Shown: piece after piece, positions 14,401-47,765 of the stretch
Layout of the letters: every line of letters starts with the position of its first letter
Numbering within the stretch: position 1 is the first letter of the stretch
Source: Membranipora membranacea
Lineage: Eukaryota; Bryozoa; Gymnolaemata; Cheilostomatida; Membraniporidae
Direction: 5' to 3'
Assembly (NCBI GenBank): GCA_914767715.1
Contig: OU612065.1
Coordinates: forward strand, 33,728,001 to 33,792,000
Length of the DNA stretch: 64,000 nt
Translations under genes and position numbers: made by a program
Notes under the pieces: generated by a model
Databases searched by the model: none
Told to the model about the DNA's origin: nothing
Seen by the model: only the letters and a program-made list of their open reading frames with translations

Positions 14401-14697
14401 ACCCCTGATTTTTATGGCATTCCTAACCTTGGTCCTATACCTAATTTCATGTTTGCCCAAAGGCTGGAAAGTCGAAGTTCATTTCCAAGATGACAATCCT
14501 GTTTTTTATGTTTTTTCATCAATGTTCGTGGTTCCAAATACTGCAGCAGGGCAGCCGTATCTACGCTTGACTCTATCACATGATGCTAGGATCAAACATG
14601 GTATGAAATCTGCAAAACAAAAGACAATAGATGAATTGAAAACTTTAGATTGGTAAAGCCTAGTGGAGGAGAGTCTAAAGCTTGTTGTTGCTGTATC
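11468..14697. other. intergenic region between SNAPC3 and the Roc-COR-caspase gene
   Basis: An ATTAAA near 11866 could be the SNAPC3 polyadenylation signal. Short frames on both strands at 12395-12733, 12668-12937 and 13093-13628 show no recognisable domain. An open frame at 14369-14656 begins with a strongly hydrophobic segment but ends before the proposed start of the next gene and has no clear in-phase continuation. It may be leader sequence or a chance frame. Confidence 0.5.
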
Positions 14698-17600
14698 ATG
14701 GAGCCTGCCGAGCCTCAATGTTCTGGTACTGTGGTGAGAGTAAGGTCTGAGACAACTGATGTCACAGAGAGCCAGGATAATGGTAAGTAGAAACTAAAAC
14801 TTTCATGACTTTTCCACCCTACTTTTTTCAGCCGTATCTGTACTACAAAGCATCGAGTTATCCCTATTCAGCTGCAAAAAAAATTGTTGTTTTATAGCTT
14901 AATTAGTTAGCTTAGTTAATATAGCTGTGCTGGCTGCGTGCTAGCTTCTCTCCTGTAAAATTAGTTACTCAATTAGAAGAAGAGAACTCTCATAAAACAT
15001 TGCCAATCTTTATCACAACTATTCTCTACATGAAGACATAGTTGCACAGTGTGGCGATAGTGGAGTAGAATGCGCCATGGGGTGAGAAAACACAACTTTA
15101 GTAGTGAATAGCGAGAGTGCTAATTAGCACCATCAACCAATTCTTTTTGTGGATGGTGAGATGGCGCAATCGGTTAGCGCGCTTGCTATTCACTACCAGG
15201 CGATTGGTGCCGCATGAGTTGTGGGTCGAATCACAGTAAGGGAGCTTTCAAGGTTGGTTGTTCCAGCCCCAGTACCCTCGGGTGTATACCTCTTCTATCA
15301 CAGCTATTCTTTACATGTAGAACTTGTAGAGCCGTTAGTCGCAGTCCCCGCTGACCTGACATCACAGGCACAAAGCATTACAGATGCTGACAAGGATGAT
15401 ATCAAGTCTGAGCTTAGTGATACCAACAACATTCAGCAAGCTGAGTCAACATGTGAGTTTAGATTAGATGTAAATGTTGTTGACTCTGATTCTGGCTTTG
15501 ATTTAGAAGGGAATATGAAGTTTTACTGTATAGCCAGTTTTCAAATTTGTTACTTTATATCACCAAATAGTTGAGGTTATTTTAGTATATCGAGTTTGGT
15601 ATGGAGATGACACTGAGCCAGAGATTGGTGAGTTTCCTGGTCATATAAACTACAGAGATGTCACACTGTCAGAATTACTAACAGATACACAAAATCTGAC
15701 TGTGACACATATGTCTGTCAAAGGAGATATACCACCACTAGATCAGATAGCTCCTAAACTAAAACATCTCATGTTACAGGGAATGAGCACAAATCAGATA
15801 AAGAAGTGAGTGAGATTTTTACAATGATTATATACATATACTTCTATTGTCAATCAACATTCATCTTCTCAAATGTTTTTCATGCAGTGCCAGAACAAAT
15901 AACTTTAAATAAGGAAAAGCGGAGAGACAAAGAAAGAAAATACACTAGTGATGAAATTAACAAGATTTAAAGTGTTTGATAGATGTTAAAAAGAGTAAAA
16001 TGAAAATTTGTACTTGGCTTTACTTTAATTGTTATAGCAATCAATGTTATATGATATAGTATGATGTAATATGTTACACATGTCATATGATGTTATGGCC
16101 ATGTATAATACCTCTGTATACTACCTGAACTGGGCATACCATCACTATACATCATAAGCCATCGTTTTAGTGTCATTTCATCCACCATTATTCTAGTTAC
16201 ATACCCTACTGACCTTATGTTTTCAAGTGGTTTAATAATTCGCGGTTAGCGATGACAGAAACAGAATACTTAATATGTTCGTGTATATTCTACCATGACA
16301 CCACAAAAAGATGTGTGCATCAGTGGTATGACTTTAGCTTGGCATGCAGAGGGTCCCAGGTTCAAATTCCGGTTGGGGAAGGGATTTTTGTTGTTGAGTT
16401 AAAAGCTTGAAATTTTCTCATCTTGGACAAACTTACCAGAAATTAGCGGGCCTAAAATACGTGAATAATTAGACTAGTGAAAAAGGTTGGAGTTGTGCCC
16501 TCCGTGAATTAGGAGCCCGCGAATTATTTTTTGGTAAAGACTATTTTATATTATATTACAGCATGTGTACAATGGTTAACCTCACAGAGCTGAATGTATG
16601 TGGTAATGAGGACCTGCAGATATTACCAGAGTGGATATGTAAGTTGGAGAACTTGACAAAGTTGGATGTGTCATACTGCGGTTTGGAGGAACTACCAGAG
16701 AGGTAAATAGCGCTGATCAATTAGCATGAATATTTGTTTGCGATGATTTATGTGCACTAAAATGCCAAGCATTGGACAGCTAATGACCTTTGAGACAGTT
16801 CTGAAAGTTTTGAACAAGATAAAATGCAATATAAAGGTAACGTAAATAGTTGTGAAGTCATGACAATTTCAGATGATGTGAGGTGAATTTCTGGTAAACT
16901 ATGAAGATTTACTGATCTTATATATTACAGCATGTGTACAATGGTTAACCTCACTGAGCTGAATGTGAGTGGTAACAGGAGCCTGAAGAGATTACCAGAC
17001 TGGATCTGTAAGATGAAGAGCTTGACAAAGTTAGATGTGTCACACTGTAGTCTACAGGAACTGCCAGAGAGGTAAATCAGACGTGTTTATCCATGCCCAT
17101 TTCTCTCTGTTTTTGCTGTTATTTTCGCCTTGTCAGTTACATGTGCCAATTTATTTAATATAATATCAAATTGAGGTTGATTTGTGAAATCCAAATGCAA
17201 GCTCTATAAAATTGATCCTCAGCAGGCTAACCATAAATACTATATCCTCTAGGGTTTTGGTATTCTGCATGATGATAACAATAATAAAGTTTTTGCCAAA
17301 CTTGATAGCTGGTAGTTTTGGAGTTGTCGGCACATAGTTCTTAAGAAAGGCGGAGCATTCTTATTTGTATGCATTTAGCATGAATATTTGTTTGCGATGA
17401 TTTATGTGCACTAAAATGCCAAGCATTGGACAGCTAATGACCTTTGAGACAGTTCTCAAAGTTTTGAACAAGATAAAATGTAATATGAAGGTAACGTAAA
17501 TAGTTGTGAAGTCATGACAATTTCAGATGATGTGAGGTGAATTTCTGGTAACAAAATGAAACTATGAAGATTTACTGATCTTATATATTACAGCATGTGT

Positions 17601-23600: not shown

Positions 23601-26600
23601 ATGCATTTAGGGTAAGTCAATCTGCATGATATGTGAAAATCTTTGATGAAATTTCTTATCCACAGCAGAGATTGATGGTGGCCACAATTTCATTGGTCAA
23701 CCAGTTTTCAAATTGGATTGTGGCTTTTGCCATTTTAGGGCGACTCTCATGATATATACAAAATTACCCTGTTTTTGTATTTTGTAATGTAGCCTAAGAT
23801 CACTCAGTCTCCCAGCAGGTACATCTTCCCTCTAAAAACAACCAAGTATGATAAACTTTGAGATAACCTTGAAGTTTCATCAAATATCAGGAGTCGGCAC
23901 AAAGCTCCCTCTGTTTTCACTAAAACTTATTTAAGGTTTTGAATGAGTAGGTCCAAAATCAGGACTGGAGTAAAGTCATAGATTCAAACAATAGTCAAAA
24001 CTCCATGGAAAACTTCATAGCTACATTTCAAGCTATCAAAAAAAGCACATGAATTCGATTTTAGACAGCCTTGGATGACAACCGAATCGTACTCACTCAC
24101 ATAGGAACATACCCAACTTCATCGTAAGGTGAAAAGATCCCTATAACCTAGTACTCAAGAAAAATTATCAGAAATTACAAATTATGTTTTAATTTAAGAA
24201 CGCTAAAAGAGATTATTTTGCACACAAATTTGAGTCATGTAAGAACAACAAAAATTGAAAAATGAAAATATATCAGAAAAATCATCACTAAGAGCGAGAC
24301 AAAAGACAGTAATTTAATGGGAAAAAAAGGATGGTTCTGAGAATGAGATCACTGATGCGTTAGGTACTGCTGGAAAGTTTAACCAATTTTTTGTGAGTAT
24401 TGGGTCGTCACTAGCTAATGATTTACCAGAAACTTCATGTGATTATGAGGGCTCCGGAAAATTTGATGAAATTTGTTTTTAGAGATTAAATCCGTAATTA
24501 GCAAGCTGAAGACAAAGGAAGCCAAAGGGTGTGATTTAATCAGCGCATGTACAATAAAGAAAACTACCTGAGGTGCTCATACTCGAAACCTTTCTAAGCT
24601 AGTTCAGACTGGATCAACAGACTAACTGGTTCATACTGACATTATCAGAGAAATATCAGCAGATTAACTGACAATGTTCTTATTGAACACTACAAAAAAC
24701 ACCATTTACCGAATCTTATCACAATGCAATCTCCGTTCTCTCATTCTGCGCATGCTCAGCTCTGGGCATGAGCTGATCTCTGCAAAATTGAGTCTCGGAA
24801 TTCCGAAGCCATCTGATTGGCTACCTGCTCTGGTGACATACTCCCCAAAGCGTGCGGATTTGTTATTAATAGTTATCCTCTCTTGTCATTATTAGCTGAT
24901 TTTGATTGACAGTTTATGCAGGGGATATCCCATTTCCCCTTTCCAAAGTTGCATTCAGAACCCAAACTAAACTCATTGCTCTTGCACATGCGCAAATTCG
25001 AGTAACGCATGATGCATACTTAGCATTACGACAGCTGCTTTGTGGTAATGATAGCCTAGTTTATCAGTGATCTACATGCCCACTCAGATCACGAGAGTCA
25101 GTATGCCGTTCTCTGTCATAGTCTAGGATCACTCACCAGCCTAGAGGAGCTGAGTTTAGATAATAATTACACACTGACAGAGTTACCAAATGAGGTTGGG
25201 GGATTGAATAGGCTAGGATATTAGATATGTCACAGTGTGGCTTCACCTGTCTGCCATTCACCATTCTAGTTACATACCCTACTGACCTTATGTTTTCAAG
25301 TGGTTTAATAATTCTCAGTTAATGACAGAAACGGAATACTTAATATGTTCATGTATATTCTACCATGACACCACAATAAGATGTGTGCATCAGTGGTATG
25401 ACTTTAGCTTGGCATGCAGAGGGTCCCAGGTACTACTCCCGTTTGTGGAAGGGATTTTTGTAGTTGAGTTAAAAGCTTGAAATTTTCTCATCTTGGACAA
25501 ACTTACCAGAAATTAGCGGGCCTAAAATCCGTGAATAATTAAGACTAGTGAAAAAGGTTGGAGTTGTGCCCTCCGCAAATTAGGAGCCCGCGAATTATTT
25601 TTTGGTAAAGACTATTTTATATTATATATTACAGCATGTGTACAATGATTAACCTCACAGAGCTGAATGTGAGAGGTAACAGAAGCCTGAAGAGATTACC
25701 AGACGGGATCTGTAAGATGAAGAGCTTGACAAAGTTATATGTGTCACACTGTAGTCTACAGGAACTGCCAGAGAGGTAAATCAGACGTGTTGATCCATGC
25801 CCATTTCTCTCTCTGTTTTTGCTGTTATTTTCGCCTTGTCAGTTAGATGTGTCAATTTATTTAATATAATATCAAATTGATGTTGATTTGTAAAATCCAA
25901 ATGCAAGCTCAGGCTTGATCAACAGTCTAACTGGTTCAGACTGACGTTATCAGGGGATTATCAACTGATTTACTGACTATCCCTATAATAAATACTACAT
26001 AAAAAATACATTACCAAATCTTATCACATCACAATCTGTGTTCTCTGTTATAGTCTAGGAACACTGACCAGCCTGGAAGAGCTGGCGTTAGATGATAATA
26101 AAACACTGACAGAGTTACCAGATGAGATCGGGGGATTGAAGAGTCTACAGTTATTACATGTATCAGGGTGTGGCCTCACCAGTCTGCCAAGCAGGTAAAT
26201 ATATATATACATTCATTGCATTTTGAGTTTGAGAAACTTTAAGAACATATTGATGTGCACTGAATGAATTTATGTATATATATATAAATGTGTGCTGAAT
26301 CTCAAGCTCTAAGCTGAAAATATTGCATTATGAGACTGGTGTGTAGAATGCAATTACCAACAAGGTGGGTTTCAATTGCAATTTTTTGTCAAATTTTTAT
26401 AAACGCTGTAGGACGTAAATATTAACTGCATGATATTGTCATAAACCAAATTTATGGCAGGATATTAAGGATGTGTCTTAAGTGCTGTTGGTCAGAGTTT
26501 TGAGTATACCAATTTGCCAGATCTGAGAGTTTGAGACTGGTGTGAAGAATTGAATTACCAACCAGGCGGGGCTCAATCGCAATTTTTTGACTTATCTTTC

Positions 26601-29600
26601 TAATAACTGTTAGGATCCAATGTAAATATTATCTGCATGATATTATCATAAGCCAAATATATTTAAGATTTGTCTGCAGCGCTGTTGGTTAGAGTTTTTG
26701 GTATGACAACACCTGAGAGTTAGAATCTAAAATACAAATATAGGATTTATTGTAAAGTCATAGATACCGAAGCACAACCCAAGTATTTACATTCAATCTG
26801 AGGTGCTCATATTCACAAAAGATTTCATGCAGGGTTGGGCTTAAGCTAGTTCAGGCTTGTTCAACAGTCTAACTGGTTCAGACTGACGTTATCAGGGGAT
26901 TATCAACTGACTACTGACTATCCCTATCAAAAATACTACATAAAAAATACATTACCGAATCTTATCACATCACAATCTGTGTTCTCTGTTATAGTCTAGG
27001 AACACTGACCAGCCTGGAAGAGCTGACGTTAGATGTTAATAAAACACTGACAGAGTTACCAGATGAGATCGGGGGATTGAAGAGTCTACAGGTATTACAT
27101 GTATCAGGGTGTGGCCTCACCAGTCTGCCAAGCAGGTAAATATATATATACATTCATTGCATTTTGAGTTTGAGTCACTTTAAGAACATATTGATGTGCA
27201 CTGAATGAATTTATGAATATACATATAAATGTGTGCTGAATCTCAAGCTCTAAGCTGAAAATATTGCAATATGAGACTGGTGTGTAGAATACAATCACCA
27301 ACAAGGTGAGTCTCAATTGCAATTTTTTGACAAATTTGTATAAACGCTGTAGGACGTAAATATTAACTGCATGATATTGTCATGAACCAAATTTATGGCA
27401 GGATATTAAGGATTTGTCTTAAGTGCTGTTGGTCAGAGTTTTGGGTATACCAGTTTGCCAGATCTGAGAGTTTGAGACTGGTGTGTAGAATTGAATTACC
27501 AACCAGGCGAGGTTCAATCGCAATTTTTTGACTTATCTTTCTAATAACTCTTAGGATCCAATGTAAATATTATCTGCATGATATTATCATAAGCCAAATA
27601 TATTTAAAGAGGAACTTAACTTGAAATCCATATTTTCCCAAATTTGCCCAAATGTTCACAGTCATATAGAGTGTCATGTTCCAACTTTGGTCATGTGTGA
27701 AATTTCCCGCCTAGTGACATCACTCACCTCATACCTAGCAATTCATCAGAGCTGTGACATCACTCACCTGATCCTCATAGTATTGATTGTATCATGTGAA
27801 TGATTCATAGATATTCATATAATATTTTCTCAGTAAATATAGTATTTTTTATTTTGATTTAAAAACTCTGCCATAAAAGTGAGTATTTTAAATATAATTA
27901 AACTAATAATTACTGAAATATCTCAATAATAATACTATTTTGAATTTTGGTGGGCGGAGCTTGGAGTATGAATACTAAGCAGATTTAGTATGTGAACTGT
28001 TTAGATGAGCAATAGAATGCATACTGACTCTTGCTGGGGATATAATGCCCATTAAATTAGTGTGTGCGGTGAGCCATAAAGAAATTGCCATACTGCTGCG
28101 AAATTATACTGCCTGCTTTGAATGAGACAGTACATATGCACCAGCAATATTTACTATCTTTGTACTGGAGTTGTCTGCTTTTTCCAATGATGTCACTAAT
28201 TATTGCTAATTTTGATTCTCCCAAAAAGAAGCTTTACATTGCACGGATTGAATTTTATTTTTCATAACATTCCTCCCCCATGTCCTAAGTATAGTGTGCA
28301 GTAAAATGAAGGTCCAAGGTTGATGCGTTCAATCTATGTTAAGTTCCTCTTTAAAGAGGAACTTAACATAGATTGAACGCATCAACCTTGGACCTTCATT
28401 TTACTGCACACTATACTTAGGACATGGGGGAGGAATGTTATGAAAAATAAAATATGGCAATTTATTTATGGCTCACCGCACACACTAATTTAATGGGCAT
28501 TATATCCCCAGCATGAGTCAGTATGCATTCTATTGCTCATCTAAACAGTTCACATACTAAATCTGCTTAGTATTCATACTCCAAGCTCCGCCCACCAAAA
28601 TTCAAAATAGTATTATTATTGAGATATTTCAGTAATTATTAGTTTAATTATATTTAAAATACTCACTATTATCGCAGAGTTTTTAAATCAAAATAAAAAA
28701 TACTATATTTACTGAGAAAATATTATATGAATATCTATGAATCATTCACATGATACAATCAATACTATGAGGATCAGGTGAGTGATGTCACAGCTCTGAT
28801 GAATTGCTAGGTATGAGGTGAGTGATGTCACTAGGCGGGAAATTTCACACATGACCAAAGTTGGAAGATGACACTCACTCTATATGACTGTGAACATTTG
28901 GGCAAATTTGGGCAAATATGGATTTCAAGTTAAGTTCCTCTTTAAGATTTGTCTGCAGCGCTGTTGGTCAGAGTTTTTGGTATGACAACACCTGAGAGTT
29001 AGAATCTAAAATACAAATATAGGATTTATTGTAAAGTCATAGATACCGAAGCACAACCCAAGTATTTACATTCAATCTGAGGTGCTCATATTCACAAAAG
29101 ATTTCATGCAGGGTTGGGCTTAAGCTAGTTCAGGCTTGATCAACAGTCTAACTGGTTCAGACTGACGTTATCAGGGGATTATCAACTGATTTACTGACTA
29201 TCCCTATAATAAATACTACATAAAAAATACATTACCAAATCTTATCACATCACAATCTGTGTTCTCTGTTATAGTCTAGGAACACTGACCAGCCTGGAAG
29301 AGCTGGCGTTAGATGATAATAAAACACTGACAGAGTTACCAGATGAGATCGGGGGATTGAAGAGTCTACGGACATTAAATGTATCAAAGTGTGGCCTCAC
29401 CAGTCTGCCAAGCAGGTAAATATATATATTTATATACATTCATTACATATTGAGTTTGAGTCGCGTTTAGAACATATTGATGTGCGCTTAATCTTAAGCT
29501 CTAAGCTGAAAATATTGCATTATGAGACTGGTGTATAGAATGCAATTACCATCAAGGTGAGTCTCAATTGCAATTTTTTGTCAAATTTTTATAAACGCTG

Positions 29601-32600
29601 TAGGACGTAAATATTAACTGCATGATATTGTCATAAACCAACTTTATGGCAGGATATTAAGGATTTGTCTTAAGTGCTGTTGGTCAGAGTTTTGAGTATA
29701 CCAATTTGCCAGATCTGAGAGTTTGGGACTGGTGTGTAGAATTGAATTACCAACCAGGCAAGGTTCAATCGCAATTTTTTGACTTATCTTTCTAATAACT
29801 GTTAGGATCCAATGTAAATATTATCTGCATGATATTATCATAAGCCAAATATATTTAAGATTTGTCTGCAGCGCTGTTGGTCAGAGTTTTTGGTATGACA
29901 ACACCTGAGAGTTAGAATCTAAAATACAAATATAGGATTTATTGTAAAGTCATAGATACCGAAGCACAACCCAAGTATTTACATTCAATCTGAGGTGCTC
30001 ATATTCACAAAAGATTTCATGCAGGGTTGGGCTTAAGCTAGTTCAGGCTTGATCAACAGTCTAACTGGTTCAGACTGACGTTATCAGGGGATTATCAACT
30101 GATTTACTGACTATCCCTATAATAAATACTACATAAAAAATACATTACCAAATCTTATCACATCACAATCTGTGTTCTCTGTTATAGTCTAGGAACACTG
30201 ACCAGCCTGGAAGAGCTGGCGTTAGAAGATAATAAAACACTGACAGAGTTACCAGATGAGATCGGGGGATTGAAGAGTCTACGGACATTAAATGTATCAA
30301 AGTGTGGCCTCACCAGTCTGCCAAGCAGGTAAATATATATATTTATATACATTCATTACATATTGAGTTTGAGTCGCGTTTAGAACATATTGATGTGCGC
30401 TTAATCTTAAGCTCTAAGCTGAAAATATTGCATTATGAGACTGGTGTATAGAATGCAATTACCATCAAGGTGAGTCTCAATTGCAATTTTTTGTCAAATT
30501 TTTATAAACGCTGTAGGACGTAAATATTAACTGCATGATATTGTCATAAACCAACTTTATGGCAGGATATTAAGGATTTGTCTTAAGTGCTGTTGGTCAG
30601 AGTTTTGAGTATACCAATTTGCCAGATCTGAGAGTTTGGGACTGGTGTGTAGAATTGAATTACCAACCAGGCAAGGTTCAATCGCAATTTTTTGACTTAT
30701 CTTTCTAATAACTGTTAGGATCCAATGTAAATATTATCTGCATGATATTATCATAAGCCAAATATATTTAAGATTTGTCTGCAGCGCTGTTGGTCAGAGT
30801 TTTTGGTATGACAACACCTGAGAGTTAGAATCTAAAATACAAATATAGGATTTATTGTAAAGTCATAGATACCGAAGCACAACCCAAGTATTTACATTCA
30901 ATCTGAGGTGCTCATATTCACAAAAGATTTCATGCAGGGTTGGGCTTAAGCTAGTTCAGGCTTGATCAACAGTCTAACTGGTTCAGACTGACGTTATCAG
31001 GGGATTATCAACTGATTTACTGACTATCCCTATAATAAATACTACATAAAAAATACATTACCAAATCTTATCACATCACAATCTGTGTTCTCTGTTATAG
31101 TCTAGGAACACTGACCAGCCTGGAAGAGCTGACGTTAGATGATAATAAAACACTGACAGAGTTACCAGATGAGATCGGGGGATTGAAGAGTCTACGGACA
31201 TTAAATGTATCAAAGTGTGGCCTCACCAGTCTGCCAAGCAGGTAAATATATATATTTATATACATTCATTACATATTGAGTTTGAGTCGCGTTTAGAACA
31301 TATTGATGTGCACTGAATGAATTTATACATATATAATACATAAATTATGAATTCATTGCATGTTGGGTTTAGAAACTCTAAGAACTTATTGATGTGTGCT
31401 GAATCTCAAGCTCTAAGCTGAAAATATTGCATTATGAGACTGGTGTGTAGAATGCAATTACCAACAAGATGGGTTTCAATTGCAATTTTTTGTCAAATTT
31501 TTATAAACGCTGTAGGACGTAAATATTAACTGCATGATATTGTCATAAACCAACTTTAGGGCAGGATATTAAGGATTTGTCTAAAGTGCTGTTGGTGAGA
31601 CTTTTGAGTATACCAATTCGCCAGATCTGCGAGAGATAGAATTTACAATACAAGTATGGAATTTATTGAATCCTACTGATATGCAAATTATGCCTGGAAT
31701 CGTCAATATGATAATAGTATTTAGATTGATTCCTTTTTAGGGGAGTTGTGTGCAATATAAACATATAGGAATGGAAAGTGATATACCTACTCAAGAATAT
31801 TATGAAGATCATATCCCCTTGTAAAAATCACTGACCCAGCTTTGTTGCCAGTATTATAGGAGTTGCTTGCACCGATGTGTTTGTATAGGCTGTTTGTCAG
31901 GTTTTTGGCTAGGCCAACCGCAAGGAATATTGATAATAGAAAAGGCAATTGAAAATATCATAGCCTATTGATCGTTGGTGTGCAGTCTTTGTATTAAACC
32001 TGTGGTCAAACATCTCTGGGAATCACTGCCAAGAAAATTTATGTTGTAAGGTAGGAATTAATGAGCTATTTTTTAGTTAGCTGCAAACAATATTCCGCTA
32101 ATATATAAAACTTGCAGATACTATAAATGACAAAAAGATTTGCCCATATAAATTGCAAAACTAATAATTCATACATTACTATCAATCTATTTATAAGCGG
32201 TCATACTCTCCAAATATTACCAGACACCATAATAGGTTGATAGACTGCAAGATCGATTACAATGTCTCCAGGGGATGGTTTCAATAAGAGACTCAAAACA
32301 TCTCTTATAGCTTCAAAATTCAGCAATAAATAGATAGACAGACATGATGTTTCCCATCATTCTGTAAGTGTTTGCATTGCTGTTTGTCCGGTTTTTTTAT
32401 ATCAGCAAACTTTGAAAATTAGAGAAGAAATTTGAGAAAATCAAATTTTATTTAACATCCAAAATATATAATCCCCTTTGTTACAACTTACCTGTCTCAA
32501 AGTTGTAGGCTTGGCATGTTACAGAGACCAGGTTATCTTTTTGTTAAGCCAATGCAGAATCACAACCCAAGGCCTGCAGGTCAGATTCACTTTCTCCCAT

Positions 32601-35600
32601 CTCTATCCAGGTTAATGGATCACCCAATAGTGATTCCGTACATGTGCTCCATTTTGGCGCCAAACATCTCATAAAAGTTTGTTTACATTGATAAGGAAGA
32701 ATTTGATGTCAAGAGTGGGACTCTCATAAACAATGCCCTATCCTATCAAACAATAATTACTGATGAATAAATTTACTAATTTTTCTCAGTAAATAGTAAT
32801 CACTTTTTGAAAATCATTATAGCTGCGCATTCCTCAGCTATATTTGACTCTGCGGGTGGATTTTTGAAAGCTTATTATCTATATTTCAAAGAAAGTAAAA
32901 TATGAAAAACTGTAGGAATACAATACATTTGACTATTCATTCTTTTCCCGAGTTCAGTTTTTAGTTTTATTACAATGGCTAGGCTCGATGTGATTACCAT
33001 GCTGTCAAAGTTATTAGGATGTAAATTTGAGCATAGCAAATTGGTAAAAGTAACTTGCATTTTTTGTCCCTAATATTACCTCCCACACAAGAAAACTGCT
33101 GCATGTGTAGTATCAAGTCTCTATAATGAATGCTGGACCTGAACCGCAGGCCACCTTCAAATCTGAGGTGCTCATACTCTAAACCTTTCACACGGGGTTA
33201 TAGGCTTAAACTTGTTTTTTTTAAAAATATTTTACAAAATTAGCCGTCAAGAAAAAACTAAAAAAGGGAAAAAAACAATCAAGATGGCGAAAGAAATAAT
33301 CAGAACATCAACTTTTGAAAAATTTATAATTGAGTATTGAACATAAATTAAATGGTATATTGTTAAAAGTAGATGATATCATATTAACTAAGAAGTTATT
33401 TGATGTTAGGTGTAGCTTGAACATGTCTCTCATATTAAAAATGCGCGAAAAATTAGAAGTTTCTAACATAAATGGTGGACATGTCTTGTTTATCAATTGA
33501 TGTCCAGTTATGTCAGTAAATTATATGTTTAGCACCAGTAGATGTAGAAGGTGTAATGACCCTGATAATTCATTAGTTGGTACCAGGTGATTAGGAATGA
33601 TTTGTATATTACATATCAACCTGAAGGCTCTCTTCTGGAGTAAAAATATGTCCTTTAGTATATAGTTTGGTGATAGGTTGTAGTAAATATGGATACCACT
33701 TATGATGTGGCAAAAAATTAAATGATGGTAAAGTATAAAAGATGTTTTGTTGTCAAAAAACGCCTAAAAAGTTGTTATAGTGTAATTGCCTTTGCTTCCA
33801 TTTAACGGACTAAGGAAACATGGTCATGCCATGTTAGCCTGTCATTCATGATGAAACCTAACAGTTTTCGTTCAGGCTTTATCAACAGACTAACTGGTTC
33901 AGACTGACATTATTAGGGGAATATCAACTGATTCTCTGACTATGTCCATAATAAATACTGTAAATAAATACATTAACGAATCTTATCACATCACAATCTG
34001 TGTTCTCTGTTATAGTCTAGGAACACTGACCAGCCTGGAAGAGCTGACGTTAAATTGTAATGAATCACTGACCGAGTTACCAGATGAGATCGGGGGATTG
34101 AAGAGTCTATGGACATTAAATGTATCAAATAGTGGCCTCACCAGTCTGACAAGCAGGTAAATATATATATTTATATACATTCATTACATATTGAGTTTGA
34201 GTCGCATCAAGAACATATTGATGTGCACTGAATGAATTTATACATATATATATAATATATATAAATTCATTGCATGTTGAGTTTAGGAACTCTAAGAACT
34301 TATTGATGTGTGCTGAATCTCAAGCTCTAAGCTGAAAATATTGCATTATGAGACTGGTGTGTAGAATACAATTACCAACAAGGTGGGTTTCAATTGCAAT
34401 TTTTTGTCAAATTTTTATAAACGCTGTAGGACGTAAATATTAACTGTATGATATTGTCATAAACCAAATTTATGGCAGGATATTAAGGATTTGTCTTAAG
34501 TGCTGTTGGTCAGAGTTTTGGGTATACCAATTTCCCAGGTCTGCGAGAGATAGAATTTACAATACAAGTATGGAATTTATGGAATCCCACTGATATGCAA
34601 ATTATGCCTGGAATCGTCAATGTGGTATAAGTATTTAGATTAATTCCTTTTTAGGGCAGTTGTGCGAAATATAAACATATAGGAATGGAAAGTGATATAC
34701 ATACTAAAGAATATTATGAAGATCATCTTTAGGATCATATCCCCTTGTAAAAATCACTGACCCAGCTTTGTTGCCAGTATTATAGGAGTTGCTTGCACCG
34801 ATGTGTTTGTATACGCTGTTTGTCAGGTTTTTGGATAAGCCAACCGCAAGGAATATTGATAATAGAAAAGGCAATTGAAAATATCGTAGCCTATTGACCG
34901 TTGGTGTGCGGTCTTTGTATTAAACCTGTGGCCAAACATCTCTGGGCATCACTGCCAAGAAAATTTATGTTGTAAGGTAGGAATTAATGAGCTATTTTTA
35001 AGTTAGCTGCAAATGATATTCCGCTAATAAATAAAACTTGCAGATAATATAAATGGCAAAAAGATTTTCCCATATAAATTGTAAAACTAATAATTCATAC
35101 ATTACTATCAATCTATTTATAAGCGGTCATATAGTCTCCAAATATTACCATACACCAGACTCCAGGGGATGGTTTCAGTAAGAGACTCAAAACATCTCTT
35201 ATAGCTTCAAAATTCAGCAATAAATAGATAGACAGACATAATGTTTCCCATCATTCTGTAAGTGTTTGCATTGCTGTTTGTCCGGTTTTTTTATATCAGC
35301 AAACTTTGAAAATAGAAATTAGAGAAGAAATTTGAGAAAATCAAATTTTATTTTACATCAAAAATATATAATCCCCTTTGTTAAAGCTTACCTGTCTCAA
35401 AGTTGTAGGCTGGGCATGTTACAGAGACCAGGTTATCTTTTTTTTAAGCCAGTGCAGAATCACAACCCAAGGCCTGCAGGTCAGATCCACTTTCTCCCAT
35501 CTCTATCCAGGTTAATAGATCACCCAATAGTGATTCCGTACATGTGCTCCATTTTGGCGCCAAACATCTCATAAAAGTTTGTTTACATTGATAAGGAAGA

Positions 35601-38600
35601 ATTTGATATCAGGTGTGGGACTCTCATAAACAATGCCCTATCCTATCAAATAATTACTGATAAATAAATTTACTGATTTTTCTCAGTAAATAGTAATTAT
35701 TTTTTGAAAATCATTATAGCTGCACATTCCTCAGTTATATTTGACTCTGCGGATGGATTTTTGAAAGCTTCTTTTCTATATTTAAAAGAAAGTAAAATAT
35801 GAAAAACTGTAGGAATACAATGCATTTGACTACTCATTCTTTTCCCGAGTTCAGTTTTTAGTTATATTACAATGGCTAGGCTTGATGTGATTACCATGAT
35901 GTCAAAGTTATTAGGATGTAAATTTGAGCATAGCAAATTAGTAAAAGTAACTTGCATTTTTTGTCCCTAATATTACCCCCACACAAGAAAACCGCTGCAT
36001 GTGTAGTAACAAGTCTCTTTAATGATGCTGGACCTGAACCGCAGGCCACCTTCAAATCTGAGGTGCTCATACTCTAAACCTTTCACACGGGGTTATAGGC
36101 TTAAACTTGTTTTTTCTAAATGTTTTACAAAACTAGCCCTCAAGAAAAAACTAAAATAGGGAAAAAAATCAATCAAGATGGCAAAAAAAATAATCAGAAC
36201 ATCAACATTTGAATAGTTTATAATTGAGTATTGAACATAAATTAAATGGTATATTGTTAAAAGTAGATGCTATCATATTGACTAAGAAGTTATTTGAAGT
36301 TAAGTGTAGCTTGAACATGTCTCTCATATTAAAAGTGCGCGAAGAATTAGAATTTTCTAACATAAATGGTGGACATGTCTTGTTTATCAATTGATGTCCA
36401 GTTATGCTAATAAAATATATGTTGAGCACTGGTAGATGTAGAAGGTGTAATGACCCTGATAATTCATTAGTTGGTACCAGGTGATTAGGAATGATTTGTC
36501 TACTAAGGAATGATTTGTATATTACATATCAACCTGAATGCTTTTTTCTGGAGTAAAAATAAGTCATCTCGTATATAGTAACTTTGGATACCACTTATGA
36601 TGTGGCAAAAAATTAAATGATGGTAAAGTATTTAAGATGTTTTGTTGTCAAAAAAGGCTTACAAAGTTTTAATTGCCTTTGCTACCTTTTTACTGACACA
36701 GGAAACATGGTCATGCCATGTTAGCCTGTCATCCATGATTAAATCTAACAGTTTTTGTTCAGGCTTTATCAACAGACTAACTGGTTCAGACTGACATTAT
36801 TAGGGGAATATCAACTGATTCTCTGACTATGCCCATAATAAATACTGTAAAAAAATACATTTACCTAATCTTATCATAACACTATTATGTGTTCTCTGTT
36901 ATAGTCTAGGATCACTCACCAGCCTAGAGGTGCTGATGTTAGGTGGTAATGAATCACTGACCGAGTTACCAGATGAGATCGAGGGATTGAAGAGTCTACG
37001 GATACTAGATGTATCAGAGTGTGGCCTCACCAGTCTGCCAAGCAGGTAAATATGATATATATATATATATATAGAGGGGAAACTGTGATTGTGTCAGCTA
37101 ACTTGGCCAAAGATATGTCCACAGAATAAGGATACAGAGGTGAAACTTGAATGGTAGTCATAGTGCCTGCGGTTTTTGATTCACTGTGGGAAAATCATCA
37201 ATCTGAATATTTGCCAGTTTTACTAAATATATTAGTTACAATGGCAATTTGTGATGCAGACATGCCTACCTATGATAGGTCATAATTCATTCTGTATGTG
37301 ACCTAAAGACTGATTTCCAACTTTTTGAAATGTTCAATCTGTGCAAGCTATACGCCATATTGTTGTCATTTTTTGCTAGGATACATAGGCTATGAGTTAT
37401 CTGGGGCTTTAAAATGAGTTATATCATATAGATTTACATGCGGCTTGGGTCAGTACACGGACATTTCTTAATTTCGATGACCGGGCCGGCTATCAATTGT
37501 CACATGTAAATCATGATAAAACTCATTTTAAAAAACATGGAAAAATTTTGGAAATCAGTTTTAGGTTATATACAGAATGAATTATGACCTATCATAGGTA
37601 GGTCTGTCAGCATCACAAATTTCCATCGTAACTTATATAATCAGTAAGATTAGCAGGTATCCAGATTGATGATTTTCCCACAGGGAATCCAAAACCGAAG
37701 GCACTATGATTATCATTAAAGTGTCCCCTCTGTATCCTTACACTGTGGACATATCTTTGGCCAAGTAAGCTGACACAGTCACTTTCGTGGGTTAATGTGG
37801 GTTAAAATTGCAAGTGTTGTCTCTGTCCGAGGACAGAGAAATATCAGTGCCTTAAGGGCGCGGCCGCCGTATTCGGCGCCAAGTTGCTCTCAGTTTGCAG
37901 GCAGGCCGGAGCACACCTGGGGCGTCATGTGTCATGAGCCCAGTAGTCAGTAGACCGCAGCGGGATTCGAAGCCAGGACCTCCAACGCTTGCGCGTCAGA
38001 GGGCAGGCGCTCTAACCAACTGAGCTACCTCCTACTCCTTGTTATCCATCCATGTCCATCCTATTACCTAAGCTTAGCCAGTTGTATTAAGCAATCAGTC
38101 ACCAGCCTGCATATTGTTATTACTGTATTTTTCTGTATAATATATTTTTTGTGTGTCAGGATCTAAAGCAAAGCAGTTAATTGAATACATATGAGAAGTT
38201 TGGAACAGCTGTTGGATATTACATACTGCTATAAACATTATTTACATCAAAACATTAGATCATTTTTTAATAAATAATACTGAGTGCAAAGTTACCTCAC
38301 GTACCATTTCAACTAATAGTCTACCTGATCACTTGCCCATTGCTGGGTGCATTCATATGCCAAAAATGTGTGGCAAACACAGCCCATCAATAATGGTCAC
38401 AAAACTACACAGTGACTTAATATCCAACAAAATAAATGAGCCAGGAAATTGGAATGTAATTTATGAAATTGGCAACCCAGGGGAGTCTTCAATGAGCGAT
38501 GCTTTATAGAAGCAAATTATCACTATCACATCTCTCAAAATCATCACTCACTTGGCTGTTCAATTAGACAAAATCGCTCACTCAGAATTTATATAGTTCC

Positions 38601-41600
38601 ATCAGAGACTGAGCCATTTCTGAGCGAGACCATAGAGTGAGCGATCAGATTGCGATTTTGGCTGTTTTTAATTGAAAGATCCCCCTAAAACCCTTCGCTC
38701 TCCTTGAAAATACGATGCAAAAGCTAATAGCACAGTTGTTATAATCCAAGCAGATGAACCAGGTCAGAAAAAGTTATACAATTTAATCAAGAAGCATGAT
38801 GGGATCCTTGAAAAATACTCATGGTCAATCATGGCTCAATACTAAAAAACTTGATAAAAAGTATTAAAAACCATAAGAGAGTTTCAAAATTGCGGAGTGT
38901 GAATTTTATCAGGAAACATTTGAAACAACATGTTTTGAACCTAACAAATATTGGGGGTTTGTCAACACAGTTTTGAACAGAAAAGTTTGTCATGATGATA
39001 CAAATGGGTGTTTGAAATCTGACGACATAAAAATGACAGAAAAACATGAAACAGCTGATAAATGTAATGAGTATTTCAGCAAAGTTGGCAGCAATCTTGG
39101 AGTCCCACAGGGCTCTGTATTAGGCCCGATCTTATTGATTATATTCATCAATGTTCTTGTTAGTACAGCCTCAATGTTCGCAGACGATACAAACATTTTC
39201 AGACCGGAGCCTTCATTATCTAATTTGAAACGAATTGACTCATTTTAAAATATACAAACACTTTTCAAATTTTCTCAAAGCTCATGACAAAATGGTGCCC
39301 AATCCTGTTAACTTTATTTCAGAAATTGGAAAGAAAGAAAGAAAGAACTTTTAGTATCGAAGTCGTTCACAAAATTTCTCGAAATTTAACATCATAATGC
39401 CATAATGTTCAAGTGCCATATTTGAGAACTTGGACAAAAATTAAATTTCACTTTGCTCCTGATGTATTGCGCCAGATGGTATTTCAATCAACAACCATAA
39501 TCAGTCTTTATTATTCATTTTTTTACCCCCATTTCATGTATGGGATTGAGTTGTAGGGGCATACTGCAGATTGCCATCTCAGCCAAATTTACCTCCTCCA
39601 AAATGCAGCTCTTTTGTTATTTCCTCATTAGGGTCATGTCACTACATATTTTGAAGAATTTTGTCTAATGCCTATTAATATACTTATCAAATACAGATTT
39701 TCAGTTCATTTTCCAAAGCAAATTTTAATAACAAACTAGGCGTTGTAAGATCCCCAAAGACTTGCACACGCTCAAATGAAAATATTATTCCAACCTAAGA
39801 GAACCACCAGCTGCAGAGGGTAATGGTCACTGCTCACCGCTGAACTGCAAACCTCATTGGTGAAAGATGTCCTCTGTTGGGTCTTATATTCCAAAGTCAG
39901 AGAGACTGGCCTGCCTGTGCGCTTGGGCAGGCAGTTCACCAAACTAGTCCCCAACTAAATGACCATACCACCGCCCTATTTTTCTAGTTGTCATTTTATG
40001 TCTGAATTTTACTGGATGCAGTAACCAAATAAAAAAAATATATAACAAACACAATGACACCGTTTTCAGTTATTTAGACAATAGTCTAATTAAAGTTATT
40101 TTATGATGACCTAGATTTAAGACTTGCAAACTGAAAAGATAAGTGTTCTCGCTTTTTGGGTGAGAAGTTGCAGGGGATTGGAATGAAGTATCTCTACTTT
40201 TATATTATGAGTAAACTCTGTAAGTGAAATGAGGAACTATTGTATTTGGGATTGACTTTGGATTTTTATGACACTGATAAACAAATTTGATACTTTATCA
40301 TATATATTCTGTTTTGAATATTTGTACCGTATCTTGAAATAAGGCATTAAGCAATGCTCGTGTGTGTGTGTGTGTAGTTTCATGCACGCTTGTATCCTTG
40401 GTTTTGATGAGTTGGATGTTTTTTTGGTCAAACCCATAAGCCGTCATTGGAATTGACGTCCTAAAGACCTACAGTAGGAAGCAGATTCATTATAAATTTT
40501 GGCTATATAATATAAAAATGGCAATATAGAACATTAGTCTCAGAACACGTGATTCTTTTGATAGAGAATTTCTCATAGGACTGGTCACGAATTCACCAAA
40601 TTACAGACACTAATTTTGCTTTTAAAACATTCATCGAAAGCTACTCTACCATCATTGAAAATTCAAGCAAGAAGACTAGTGCTAAAACCCAAATGCTACA
40701 TTTTAAAAAGCCATCGATGACCACAGAATCATTGGAACTTAGAGGAAAGTGTAAAAAATTGCACATTAAATCTAAACAAGAACAGGAGTTTCCAATACAG
40801 AAGCCAGCTAACCAATAAATTGCCTTCCAATTAGTCCTTTTAATGATATTTAGGAATTGTTAACAATTTCAGGTATTTCAATGCGTCAGACCTTTTAAAC
40901 TCTGCGAAGAACTGTCACAGTGTTACTATTAATGTTATATTGTCACTATTATTCCTCGAATGAACAGAACACCCCCCCCCCTCCCCTAAACATTTTAGTA
41001 TTTCACAAGATCATTATGGGGAAAGTGTGACAAATTTACATAAATCTGGTTAAGAAAAGTATTTCTATTTACATTTCAGAAAAGCTGAAAAGACTCCTTT
41101 ATTGATTTATCACAAGAAAATTATTATTATTTTCCTAATAAGGAAGTTCTGATGAGACAACAGAAATTTGTTCTACCATAGACATCAGGTAGCAAGACAG
41201 AAATTGCACCATATTTAAAACCTAGGCACGGAATCACTGTCCAAATCGATAAAGATTCTTTTATTCCTACCAAATTCCATAGAAAATGCACTGTATGCTA
41301 TTAAAATTGCAATGGATTCCTACACTTCTCATAGGTAAAAATATTTGAGCTATTCTATTTTTCTTTTTACAGCATGTCAAACTTAGAAAATTTAAGGCTA
41401 CTGAATATCAATAAGAATATAGCTCTACTCTCAATTCCCGCTGGAGTATGTCGACTCGATACACTCAAGTCAATGGAGTGTAAAGACTGTACATCTCTGA
41501 CAAGTCCTCCTTATGCTGTCTGTAGACAGGGGCTGCTAGCAATGAGAAAATACTTTGCCGATCTGGAAGAAAATGTTGAGCAAAACAAAAAGTTTGTTCC

Positions 41601-44600
41601 AATAACTGTTATTGGTCAAACTATGGCTGGTAAAACCAGCCTTGTTCGGTCAATGCAAGAAAATAAACGGGCTTTGACCACTCGATGTAACAATAGCAAG
41701 CTAGATGAGGCCACCAAAGTGATCAAGGTGTGTGAGGTAGACGTTGATGAAAAATTCAAACTTGTATTTCATGACTTTGGTGGGCAAGCAGTATATCAGT
41801 TTGCCTATCAATTGTCACATAGATCACAGTATGTTCCCATGCTTGTCATAGACATTGCTGAATTTGACCGACTTGTAGCTGAACACGGAGAAGAGAATGC
41901 CTGTGAGACAGTCTGTTTAACATGGCTCTCCCACCTTTATTTGTCCTGTCCAAAAGCAGGCCAGCCTTTCGTGGTGCTCACCCACTGTGATCTTATCGAT
42001 AATGAAACCTGCAAAGCGAGAGTGAGTCAGTTGATAGAAGTGACTGAACGTCTGCGCCTTAGGTTAATAGAGGAGGAGAAGGCAATGAGACCAATAAACA
42101 GTCCAATCTTCATAATGGAGAGTTTCTGTGATACATCTCAACCTCTTCTCTCAAAACACACACCCCTTCTCATATATAAAGGTTCTGGAACACAGGTAAT
42201 CCTCGATCTAAAAACTTTCCTTGTGTCTGTTGGATTGCCTCTACTCACAGAGATTCCAGGTAGCTGGTATGTTCTGATGAATTTGTGTGCAAACAGCACA
42301 CAGCCATATCTTACGCTGGGTGAGCTAGACAAGCTCTTCTCTAATGACAAAGATCGCTTCATTCTTCAGTACCTTCATGAAATCGGGCGAGTGATGTGGT
42401 ACAGAAATCGAGTCAAACTAAAAAACATCGTGTTTCATCGCATTGAGCTGCTCACACACCTAGTTGAGTTGCTCTATGATCACTGCAGAGAGGAAGCGTG
42501 GAATAAGCATAGTTTTCTGGCATTCCAGCATGATAACATGGGAATCAATCAACGGCAATACAATCATATGGTCCAATCATACCTAAATACTGGAGTGATA
42601 AGGGACATTTTACTGCTCAACCTCATCAAAAAAGAGTCCGAATTCAAATCCCAACCTGAGCTTGCAATCGAGGTATTGAAGGTCTTTCATTTGGTTTGTG
42701 GTCCTGTCAAGAAGGGCAGTGAAAGTCATTATATCGTCCCATACTTCAGTCAGAGAGAAATCACAATCGAGGAATCTGGAAAGTACATTCTTTTGAAAGT
42801 TGACATCTGTTTCAACGGACTGGCTATTCCTAGCTACGTATATCATCTTCTCGCTGCAAATTATGTGGATCTCCATATAACGCCATCCAATTGTATTGAG
42901 GCTGGCTCCAATGGTGTTTGTGTGAGGGAAAACAATGGCACAATCAAGTACCTGCTTCATAACCATACTGAGAGAACCTTTTCCCTCCTGATACTGACCC
43001 CAACAAAACATGTCGATAAATCCTGGAACAGCCTGCTGTACACCTTGCAAAATTTGAGATCTCAACTGGAACAAGAATGGAAGGGAGCTCACTATGAGAT
43101 AGTATTCTACTGTTCGCACTGCCTGCTCACTAAGAAGGAGAACCCAACCACTCAAGTCAATCCTGCATGGCTCAACACTCGCCATCAACCTTATACTGGC
43201 GATGAAACTTGTGACTGTATTCAGCAAACTTCAGCCAAAAGCCGGACTACTATTCCGTATCCACTGTTCTATCCATGTGAGTACAGTTTCACCAACTTAT
43301 GTATGATTGATATGGCAATGAAAATTCTGGTCTGCTCTTTCTGCCTTCCTCTATAGATACCTTAATTCAAATTGTTTTTCTGATGCTTGCTATATTATGA
43401 CATACTACATGCTACTATATGCTTGATAGGTAGCACCATCACAGAGAGAGGGGTTCGGACTTTAGATGAGTACATGTCAGAATTCGAAGTGGCTTCTCAT
43501 GAATCACAAATAGAGGATATTGTGAAGGAAGTAAATTCTGAGAAAGTTCTTATTTACGCTTCAGATTTATATCCAGTCACGGCTGACCCAATGAGTAGTA
43601 CACTGAAACATAAGGTAGGAAGATGTTGTTGATTTTCACCTTTTATATGTAATATTTTCAAGATGAACCCCACTGTTTTCACTCATAACCTGCATACAAT
43701 AAGATGGTAGTAAATTTACTGGATTTAGTGTGCCTACACACACATTAGTCAGAGTCTTATTTTCTTGCAGAAGGTGTACAAAATGTCTGAGACTCGCGGA
43801 AGAGCGCTTATTATATCGAACACCTGCAATAACACAAGGAAAGGTTCAGAGCATGACTATCGGAATATTAAAGGAATGCTTGAGAAGTTTGGATTTATAA
43901 CTGTAGGAGGTCACAAAAATTACACTGCAGAGGTAATGGCAATGTTTTTGTTCCGCCATTGTTTAAGCGCTCAAACGGTGACGGGATGCTGGTAGAGGCA
44001 TTTCATTATCAAGAGAAAGTGGTTGATAATGAAATGCCTCTACCCGCATCCCGCCACCGTTTGAGCGCTTAAAGGGCAACCAGGGTTTCAAATAACTTCT
44101 CATTTGTTCTCATTGATTAATAACAGATTGCACCTTCTGCATAGAGAAAAAGACAAAATCTAATTGGGATGATTATTCAGCCAAAATTCTTGTGAAACAT
44201 TTCATCCATCTGGTACTGACACTAGAATACCACAGAGCAGTTTCCTGTTCCTGTTATTATTTAGCCTGTGCTCTATCATCATTACAGCAATGTCGTGGAA
44301 CCTCCCCTAAACTGAAGTGTTACCCAGCTTAGAGTCAGTAACCACTTTGAGTTTTGCATCGCGTAATGCACAAAGCTGATGCTGCTTAGCACATTATTTA
44401 CTACCTGTTAATGCATTGCTGCAAATCCTTGGTTGCCCCTTAAAGGGCAACCAAGGTTTCAAACAACTTCTCATTGATGGCCATTGATTAATAGCAGATT
44501 GCACCTTCTGCATGGGGAAAAAGATAAAATATAATCCGGATGATTATTCAGCCAGAATTCTTGTGAAACATTTCTTCCATCAGGTACTCAAACTCAGCTA

Positions 44601-47600
44601 AAAGAGAATACCACATAGCAGTTTCCTGTTCCTGTTATTATTTAGCCTGTGCTCTATAATTATTACAGCAAAATCTTGGAACCTCCCCTAAACTGAAGTG
44701 TTACCCGGCTTAGAGTCAGCAGCTACTTTGAGTTTTGCATCGCGTAATGCACAAAGCTGATGCTGCCCAGTGCATTATTTGCTACCCATTGATGCATTGC
44801 TGCGAAACCTTGGTTGCCCTTTAAACTAGCTCCGCCACGATGAAATAAACGCATTGTCACTATAGGAAAATTATCAATATTTGATCTAAAATTATAATAG
44901 TTAGAGGTGACTGTAACTCAGTTTGTAAGGTAGTATAGATATTTCATATGAGAGAGCCAGTGATCAATTCCCAGCAATTGCAGAAGTATAAGAAGAAGCG
45001 ACCAACCAAAGCAGCAGCATCTTGTTATCAACTTGATGCTATTTCTTCTTCAATTTTTTTTTTAGCTGAAAATTAGTATCAACTGTTCAGGATAAGCTGC
45101 TAAATCTACTGTAATTCTCAAACTCAAAATCAAAGAAAAACCTGGACTTTTGACAGTAAAGCAATAATTGCATCATTGTGTCTACAACTTCCGATGACGT
45201 TACGTCGCCCCACAATTAAGTGCCTCATTTCAGCTGTATATGGTGTCCTGTCTAGGTATGTTATTAAGTCTATGGTGAGATCCTATTTTTTGGCTTCAGG
45301 CTATATACGTATACTCGAATCACTTATTTGTTGTTTGCATAGATGATCGTTACGGCTATCCATTCAGAGACACAGCTAGTAGACTGGGAGACAGGAGAAT
45401 CAGTACACAAACATCTCAACTCATTTGTGTTGGTCATCACAAGTCATGGTCATGAAGGGTCTGTGTCTGGTTCCAATGGTAAACATCTCGTAATCACAGA
45501 GCTTATGGATCTGCTCTCATCTGAGAATTTCCCCGCTATGAGAGGGAAGCCAAAGCTGGTCATCATACAGGCTTGTGCTGGTAGTAAGTTTATAAACTTG
45601 ATCGTTTATGGACCGTCAATTATTTTTCTAAGGGAGTAACTTACTAATAGTTCAACGATTCTTTTTTAATTTCCATGTCCTTGTCATTTACGTCTGCATT
45701 CTCAGGCAGCGATTTAATTACCGATGGTATGACATACACCCAAATTTTCTACTAAGTATTTGCTCTTATACTCATAAGACAAATTAGTTCTCAGTGAAAG
45801 TCAAGATTGTCTCTCTACTTGTAGGTAGGAAAGAAACACTTCCAGGAGACTTGCCCCCTTCTCAAGCACCACCCAATCAGAATCAGCTAGAAGTAGATCA
45901 GCCTCAACATAGCAATGGTGCCACAAATGAATCCCCTTCTACAGATCCTCATGATAACCCTATATCAGACTTCATCATTATGCAGTCCAGCTTTGATTGT
46001 AAGTTGTGAGAGACAATATTCCATACTTTCTAATTGTGATCGTAGATGTGTTGGTATTGAAATGAACATAATTGTACTTTATATCACTGACAACCAGTTT
46101 GAAGGTTGTGATGGTTTGTTGATGATTGAGTTATTTTAAATTATGAACAGTAGGACACCCAACTCAATCTGACGGGCACAGCTGAGCTGAGGCATATCCA
46201 TCTTCTTGGTTTGAGTGATGTCATCGATCAGTTATTTTAACAGGATATCCCAGCCTTTGGCATGCACAACTCATTTGAACACTTACAGAGTATGATAACT
46301 AGCCACTTGGTCATACTGGGCAATAGTAGGAAATGCAAAAACAATTTTTTGTGTTCTTTTGCAGCATTCAAATTACATCGAAGTCCTAAAGTTGGCTCGC
46401 TGTTCATCCGCTGCCTGGTATCTACATTCTATAGATATGCTCACAGAGATCATCTCGAAGAACTGGCAGCAATTGTAAGTGATAGATCTTACTGCAGTTT
46501 TAGTCAATGTATGATGCTTGTAAACAGATTTTACACAATCAATCGAGTTTTTTGCAGTACAGTTATTAATTGTCTCAACAAATTGTTGGTTAATGCTTGA
46601 GAGTTTAGTAAGACTTGATGTAAGCATGTGTATTTTTACAGCATAATCTCAAGCTGAATCAATCAAGCACAAATACAACACACGTTTTTTTAGGGTGGGG
46701 GGTAAATGGACTGAATAATACATAGCATGTTAGTCACAGCTAAGTAAATGATTCCACCCGCACCTTTGTGACGGCCATTGGCTTATTTTACAGGTCAGTG
46801 AGACTGTAGTAAAGGCTGGAGCACAGAGAACAGAATATCTGCAAAGAATCGGAAAGCAGCATTATCCCTCTATACCTCAGACTAGATCTACATTTCTAGG
46901 TAATAAGTTCTATCTGCAGCCTGGGATCAATATGAGAACAGAGGACCACCCAGAATCACTCAGAAATCCTGTGTTACGCAAACCTACAGCTACAAGGATT
47001 CACACAGAACCTGGTATGTATGATGTTATGTATGATATAGAAGAAATGAAAATCATAGAAACTTTTTACTCGTTTCAATGCCGTTGCGCCACTTACGATG
47101 CTAATGCTGCTGCTGCCGCCGCCGCCGCCGACGCCGCTGCTGCTGCTGCTGCTGCTGCTGCTGTTTACAGTTTCCTGTCTAGGTTGAGGAAGTTTTTATT
47201 TTTACCTGATTATGACACTGCCTCAGTTTTTTCTCCTACACACCCGCTGATATGTCTGTAACTTGTGAATTAACCAAAATATAAGGTACATATGTATTTT
47301 TTGAGTAATGAAAAAGCATTGTGCAATAATACATATCATGCAATATTTATTAGTGCTAGAGATGCGTTAGACAAAGAGTGGCCCAATGGTTAAGGGTGCG
47401 AACTTGCAAACCTTGAAGACCAAGTTCAATTCCCAGCCCGGCAAATGATAATGTTGAAAATAAGATGCAAATAACATGTTATGCTTTCTACCTGATGCGG
47501 CCACAAATTATTTTCTTGCCCACCCACTGATATGTTGTCATGAAGGAACAACTTGAAAATTCACAAAAAAAAAACATGAGTGAAATATGATTGGCCTATG

Positions 47601-47765: not shown

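Follow-up and report, generated by a model that had tools for sequence, protein, structure and literature searches.

The window analysed here is a 64-kb stretch of contig OU612065.1 from the bryozoan Membranipora membranacea, and all positions are counted from its first base. On its plus strand lies a chain of exons in which an array of leucine-rich repeats (LRRs), a Roc GTPase, a COR domain and a complete caspase are, to judge from the sequence, probably fused in one gene (Table 1). The chain was rebuilt from the DNA with exon edges set to AG/GT splice sites. It comprises 34 exons and 6789 coding bases, starts with the ATG at 14698 and stays open for 2262 codons until the TGA whose last base is 47765; the 33 introns are all bounded by GT and AG, and the phases agree at every junction. 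The initial annotation had claimed consistent exon phases from the N-terminal exon to the end strand of p10, with GQTMAGKTSL, DFGGQ, THCD, the CSHC of the COR end, SHGHEG and QACAG all in one frame. Both claims are borne out by the joined 34-exon frame, and the exon boundaries that it had named (37045, 41373, 43276 and 45343) coincide to the base with those of the rebuilt model.

Domains of the encoded protein

The 23 LRR exons are exactly 141 bp long, are preceded by AG and followed by GT, have phase 2 on entry and exit and encode two repeats each; 16 are of type A (SMCTMVNLTEL...) and seven of type B (SLGTLTSLEEL...). Pfam scans covered the N-terminal 198 and the C-terminal 1031 residues at E <= 1, with filters that drop most matches above 0.1 and with the LRR-exon stretch between the two pieces outside the scan; LRR_4 and LRR_1 were above cut-off in the N-terminal piece. 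The mean DNA likeness among type-A exons is 90%, as it is for the 30 bp before them, and 68% for the 30 bp after them (ungapped). Tandem units of ~375 bp were detected in the type-A array and indicate recent duplication. The peptides of all 16 type-A exons differ from one another, and variation among their 47 sites is greatest at 39, where seven residues occur (D, E, F, H, L, R and Y), and at 41, 20, 17 and 14. By eye the varied sites follow the LxxLxV strands, and they are likely to be at surface positions. Pooled over each type, dN/dS (nonsynonymous to synonymous change) came to 0.68 in type A and, from few changes, to 1.85 in type B. An array of surface-varied LRR exons suggests fast change in binding specificity. 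The 4327-bp intron preceding the Roc exon holds a reverse-transcriptase fragment (38877-39245, plus strand; RVT_1, 0.00015, below cut-off).

The Roc domain was matched in the C-terminal piece at 3.3e-6 and 27.8 bits against a cut-off of 27, and at 28.7 bits when the exon 41373-43276 was scanned alone. Its motifs GQTMAGKTSL, DFGGQ and THCD, which we take to be G1, G3 and G4, are intact; COR stands directly after Roc, as in the Roco family, and the LRR array before it, as in Roco groups 1 and 2. A caveat to this assignment is that COR-A in the window is below its cut-off of 35.3 bits, with 19.2 bits in the C-terminal piece and 20.7 bits for the exon alone. Despite that score the assignment is supported by 19 relatives, by matches to COR-A at E <= 0.01 in 16 of the 19 rows of an alignment (A3) of the window with 18 relatives, and by the predicted fold, whose alignment with LRRK2 and C. 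tepidum Roco extends through COR. The COR end keeps CSHC and two more cysteines, with C581, H583 and C584 invariant and C616 and C636 nearly invariant across relatives, a pattern that could bind metal.

The six exons after the linker exon build a caspase through its end strand to the stop codon. Peptidase_C14 was matched at 102.9 bits (cut-off 21.4) over profile positions 1-224 of 233, which takes in the large and small subunits. The best relative in the PDB by sequence is caspase-9 (1.5e-13), with which SHG, QAC, the R of TRKGS and the R of HRSPKVGS align. The catalytic His-Cys pair is present, along with two arginines that presumably have the S1-pocket role. A candidate cleavage site, LEVD, lies in the linker between the two subunits. 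A mobile element has probably inserted into caspase intron 1 at 43940-44825, where there are two tandem copies of 381 bp and, seen by eye around 43940-44075, an inverted repeat; the last intron has a run of TGC-type triplets at 47105-47163.

A chance reading frame was ruled out by the 23 in-phase 141-bp exons, the continuous frame and the Pfam matches (Peptidase_C14, 2.8e-29). A pseudogene was likewise rejected, the 2262 codons being unbroken and the G motifs and catalytic residues intact, with one decayed extra LRR exon. No second copy of the Roc-COR or caspase part was found in the 64-kb window (tblastn, E <= 1), where the extra matches were LRR exons only. The gene lies between SNAPC3 (upstream) and EFTUD2 (downstream), which share its plus strand, so that its surroundings are those of an ordinary animal-like chromosome; the stretches 60998-61252, 62078-62329 and 62874-63110 resemble later EFTUD2 exons by eye, without Pfam match.

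Table 1. Features of the rebuilt gene model and of the neighbouring genes.
Feature	Position	Strand	Remarks
First coding exon	14698..14782	+	ATG; in-frame TGA upstream at 14632
N-terminal coding exon 2	15321..15452	+	No Pfam domain match
N-terminal coding exon 3	15571..15805	+	Runs into first LRR
Type-A LRR exons (16)	16562..25775	+	141 bp each, phase 2-2; starts 16562, 16931, 17594, 17972, 18350, 18725, 19103, 19696, 20071, 20773, 21368, 21743, 22121, 22787, 23162, 25635
Decayed type-B LRR exon	25120..25265	+	Frame broken, excluded from model; read by eye
Type-B LRR exons (7)	26054..37045	+	141 bp, phase 2-2; starts 26054, 26995, 29275, 30188, 31101, 34016, 36905
Last LRRs, Roc GTPase and COR (single exon)	41373..43276	+	Ends YPC, phase-1 donor
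Linker exon, COR-caspase	43430..43614	+	Second half conserved in P0022
Caspase exon 1	43771..43932	+	TRKGSEHD; possible internal start ATG 43783
Caspase exon 2	45343..45583	+	Catalytic His (SHGHEG) and Cys (QACAG)
Caspase exon 3	45825..45998	+	Inter-subunit linker with LEVD; small subunit begins
Caspase exon 4	46365..46474	+	Small subunit, HRSPKVGSLFIRCLV
Caspase exon 5	46794..47013	+	Small-subunit end strand (TRSTFLGNKFYLQPG)
Last coding exon and stop codon	47668..47765	+	
SNAPC3	9295-9537, 11123-11464	+	Upstream; PF12251, 6e-12 and 1.7e-20
EFTUD2 (U5 116-kDa protein), N-terminus	58666-59013	+	Downstream; PF16004, 1.9e-10

Relatives in sequence databases

Three protein searches were made, in the length ranges 217-691, 567-1804 and 935-2975 residues, and the relatives stem from ena, lgn and jgi sources, taken for metagenome-type data. 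The Roc-COR-caspase query (567-1804 residues) found 21 proteins at E <= 0.001, 19 of them close Roc-COR relatives with 41-59% identity, lengths of 616-719 residues and contigs of 2.6-8.5 kb. They seem to represent the Roc-COR exon alone, called as an open reading frame (ORF). The COR end is reached by 17 of the 19, and the residue that follows it is E in eight, K in seven and M in one, while one stops at the Cys. What follows the COR end in 16 of the 17 is thus compatible with a phase-1 splice donor positioned as in the window. Because Cys followed by E, K or M corresponds to TGT plus GAR, AAR or ATG, that is to a phase-1 donor, the relatives appear to splice onward from COR.

The query with linker and caspase (217-691 residues) found three proteins at E <= 0.001. 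One of these, P0022 (405 residues, on a 1731-bp contig), has the second half of the window linker and the caspase in one ORF, and its linker match to the window exceeds all of 5000 shuffles; the join of linker and caspase is conserved. The predicted structure of P0022 (mean predicted local distance difference test score 50.5, from three sequences) gives a coarse match to caspases, with a best E of 1.2e-10. The full-length search (935-2975 residues) gave six matches at E <= 10, all of which list PF08477 (Roc) and PF16095 (COR-A) and none PF00656; one was at E <= 0.001 (P0021, 22% identity). In the precomputed domain list P0021 has LRR, Roc, COR-A and PF13676, which we take to be TIR, and is another Roco with an effector domain. 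Beyond the protein searches, no relatives were found in viral_contigs in two scans, one scan of genome_contigs gave a single bacterial contig (L001) with a 25% match to residues 53-159, and no PADLOC model matched P0022 or the Roc-COR exon at E <= 0.01.

One gene or two

The initial annotation had proposed a single gene. Its architecture, LRR-Roc-COR followed by a complete caspase, is consistent with this in the phases, the short introns, the donor at the COR end and the P0022 linker; a joined COR-caspase sequence did not turn up among the matches, and the fusion is supported, not proven. Several observations weigh against it. Among the matches of the three protein searches there was no clear sequence spanning COR to caspase. 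P0022 is without the first part of the window linker, and the Cys that it places in the junction column (MAFFT) stands amid gaps. When its first 30 residues were compared with the window and 15 of the 19 relatives, those before the junction resembled COR ends weakly, with the best score reached by 75 of 1000 shuffles and the mean score by 24 of 1000; their homology to COR is suggestive only. The first residue of P0023 is the caspase methionine, and the window also has a methionine there. Finally, the three phase agreements at the domain joins have a chance probability of about 1 in 27.

These points could be accommodated if there were two adjacent genes, one in which LRR-Roc-COR is spliced to a different end and one for the caspase alone that starts from ATG 43783 or from a first exon of its own; the phase agreement would then be accidental or left over from a former fusion. 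The caspase domain opens with ATG 43783, which an in-frame stop at 43726 precedes by 57 bases, and both the equivalent start of P0023 and the want of a clear joined sequence among the matches fit such a gene. Two genes nevertheless seem unlikely. The introns that separate the COR, linker and caspase exons are only 153 bp and 156 bp long and contain neither AATAAA nor ATTAAA, signals that occur downstream of the stop codon from 47943 on, with one AATAAA inside caspase intron 1 at 44844. Of the linker exon, which lies upstream of ATG 43783, the second half is conserved in P0022, the COR end resembles a splice donor and not a stop in nearly all the relatives that reach it, and it may have been the gene caller that set the start of P0023. 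Somewhat less probable again is a single locus with alternative products, in which the full-length form would be accompanied by short caspase and/or Roco forms made through an alternative promoter, splicing or intron retention. Retention of the COR-linker intron would end the protein after a short tail (ORF 41335-43356), and alternative splicing is reported for ROCO genes of brown algae that have LRR exon arrays (PMC11378527). That the assembly has joined unlinked Roco and caspase loci, or inflated the LRR array, is very improbable: an array so highly repetitive could be mis-sized, but the window has zero N, no tandem repeat is reported between the Roc-COR exon and 44068, and SNAPC3 and EFTUD2 flank the gene as in an ordinary chromosome.

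Proposed action and comparison with known systems

Initiator caspases are activated by proximity, and Roc-COR acts in dimerisation, as is established for relatives of the two parts. If the locus is one gene, its product is probably a receptor-protease of ~2262 residues in which the sensor activates its own caspase by proximity. A single mRNA would carry all the parts, and the protein would be cytosolic. The long LRR solenoid, encoded by duplicated 141-bp exons and variable at positions likely to be exposed, would bind a ligand; Roc-COR would shift its oligomeric state with the nucleotide, and two C-terminal caspase domains would thereby be brought together and activated. The paired caspases would then cut after Asp, perhaps at the LEVD of their own inter-subunit linker first, and the active protease would lead to a death or inflammatory response. 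A difficulty for this scheme is that the GTP-bound form of C. tepidum Roco is described, in the available text, as the active monomer (PMC11052575), which makes the pairing of caspases by such a switch hard to explain. MASL1 complexes, from the part of the source available, are modulated by GTP (PMC3995007).

The account of Roco proteins available in a review divides them into LRR-Roc-COR, kinase and DAPK groups; group 1 (C. tepidum Roco, MFHAS1/MASL1) has LRRs only, before RocCOR, whereas the window protein adds a caspase after it (PMC6337361). The placozoan Trichoplax, an early-branching animal, has Roco proteins in which Roc-COR is combined with the death-related domains CARD, death and TIR; these partners are adaptor or signalling domains, and the available text lists no caspase, which the window protein has (PMC4104024). 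Amphioxus LRRs-caspase and TNFR-caspase hybrids have a receptor domain directly fused to a caspase with QACxG, as in the window, but a Roc-COR switch is unmentioned, 'roc' and 'cor domain' having 0 occurrences in the available text (PMC2575513). The brown-algal ROCO genes resemble the window in that their LRRs come from repeated phase-2 exons with varied sites; as far as the available text goes, the selected sites are on the concave face and the exons are 72 bp with one LRR, in place of 141 bp with two (PMC11378527). LRRK1 and LRRK2 have, by predicted fold, the LRR-Roc-COR core in common with the window protein, and in both an effector enzyme is C-terminal to COR; theirs is a kinase and that of the window protein a protease, and the two Pfam-scanned pieces of the latter (N-terminal 198 and C-terminal 1031 residues) have no match to kinase or WD40. 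A C-terminal peptidase in a Roco protein has a precedent, of family IPR009003, which is presumably trypsin-like. It is found at the C-terminus of brown-algal ROCO group 3, in the portion of the source available, and belongs to another family than caspase (PMC11378527).

The sponge Dysidea avara has a large LRR receptor repertoire of NOD-like receptors (NLRs), with CASc and COR listed among the domains of NLR architectures; these are defined by NACHT, and the available text leaves unstated whether COR and CASc share one protein (PMC12909245). Neither NACHT nor NB-ARC was matched at E <= 1 in the N-terminal 198 or C-terminal 1031 residues of the window protein (the LRR-exon stretch between being outside the scan), and it is not an NLR, though it may work like a sensor-activated caspase. 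Bacterial AP-GTPases with COR, in whose description the Roco reviews are cited, belong to conflict systems in which caspase-like peptidase domains are employed too (PMC7159879). The available portions of two further papers have nothing on the combination LRR-Roc-COR-caspase (PMC8195603, PMC6208332), and no Roc-COR-caspase protein was among the matches listed in the open-licence literature, a scope that mostly leaves out subscription papers. The initial annotation's statement that no Roco is known to end in a caspase agrees with those matches, but has to be tempered by the close precedents which the available texts provide in the amphioxus LRRs-caspase, the Trichoplax Roco with CARD, death or TIR and the algal ROCO-peptidase. 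What is new here is a Roco-family member, probably encoded by one gene, whose output enzyme is a caspase.

Its design, which the initial annotation had likened to an inflammasome in one molecule, would be so in function if the proposed action holds. Cell death and immunity have been associated with Roco proteins, LRRK2 and DAPK1 among them, for a long time, but without a clear output. With a caspase as the output enzyme that link would become testable in one molecule, which makes the protein relevant to work on Roco and on cell death alike. A caspase output would also show that in animals a GTPase switch, and not only NACHT and NB-ARC ATPases, went into receptors that activate caspases. Tentatively, the window protein may represent a family of self-contained immune receptors that combine, on one chain, an executioner caspase with a Roc-COR switch and an array of hypervariable LRR exons; they would be adaptor-free and apoptosome- or inflammasome-like with a Roco GTPase in place of the STAND ATPase.
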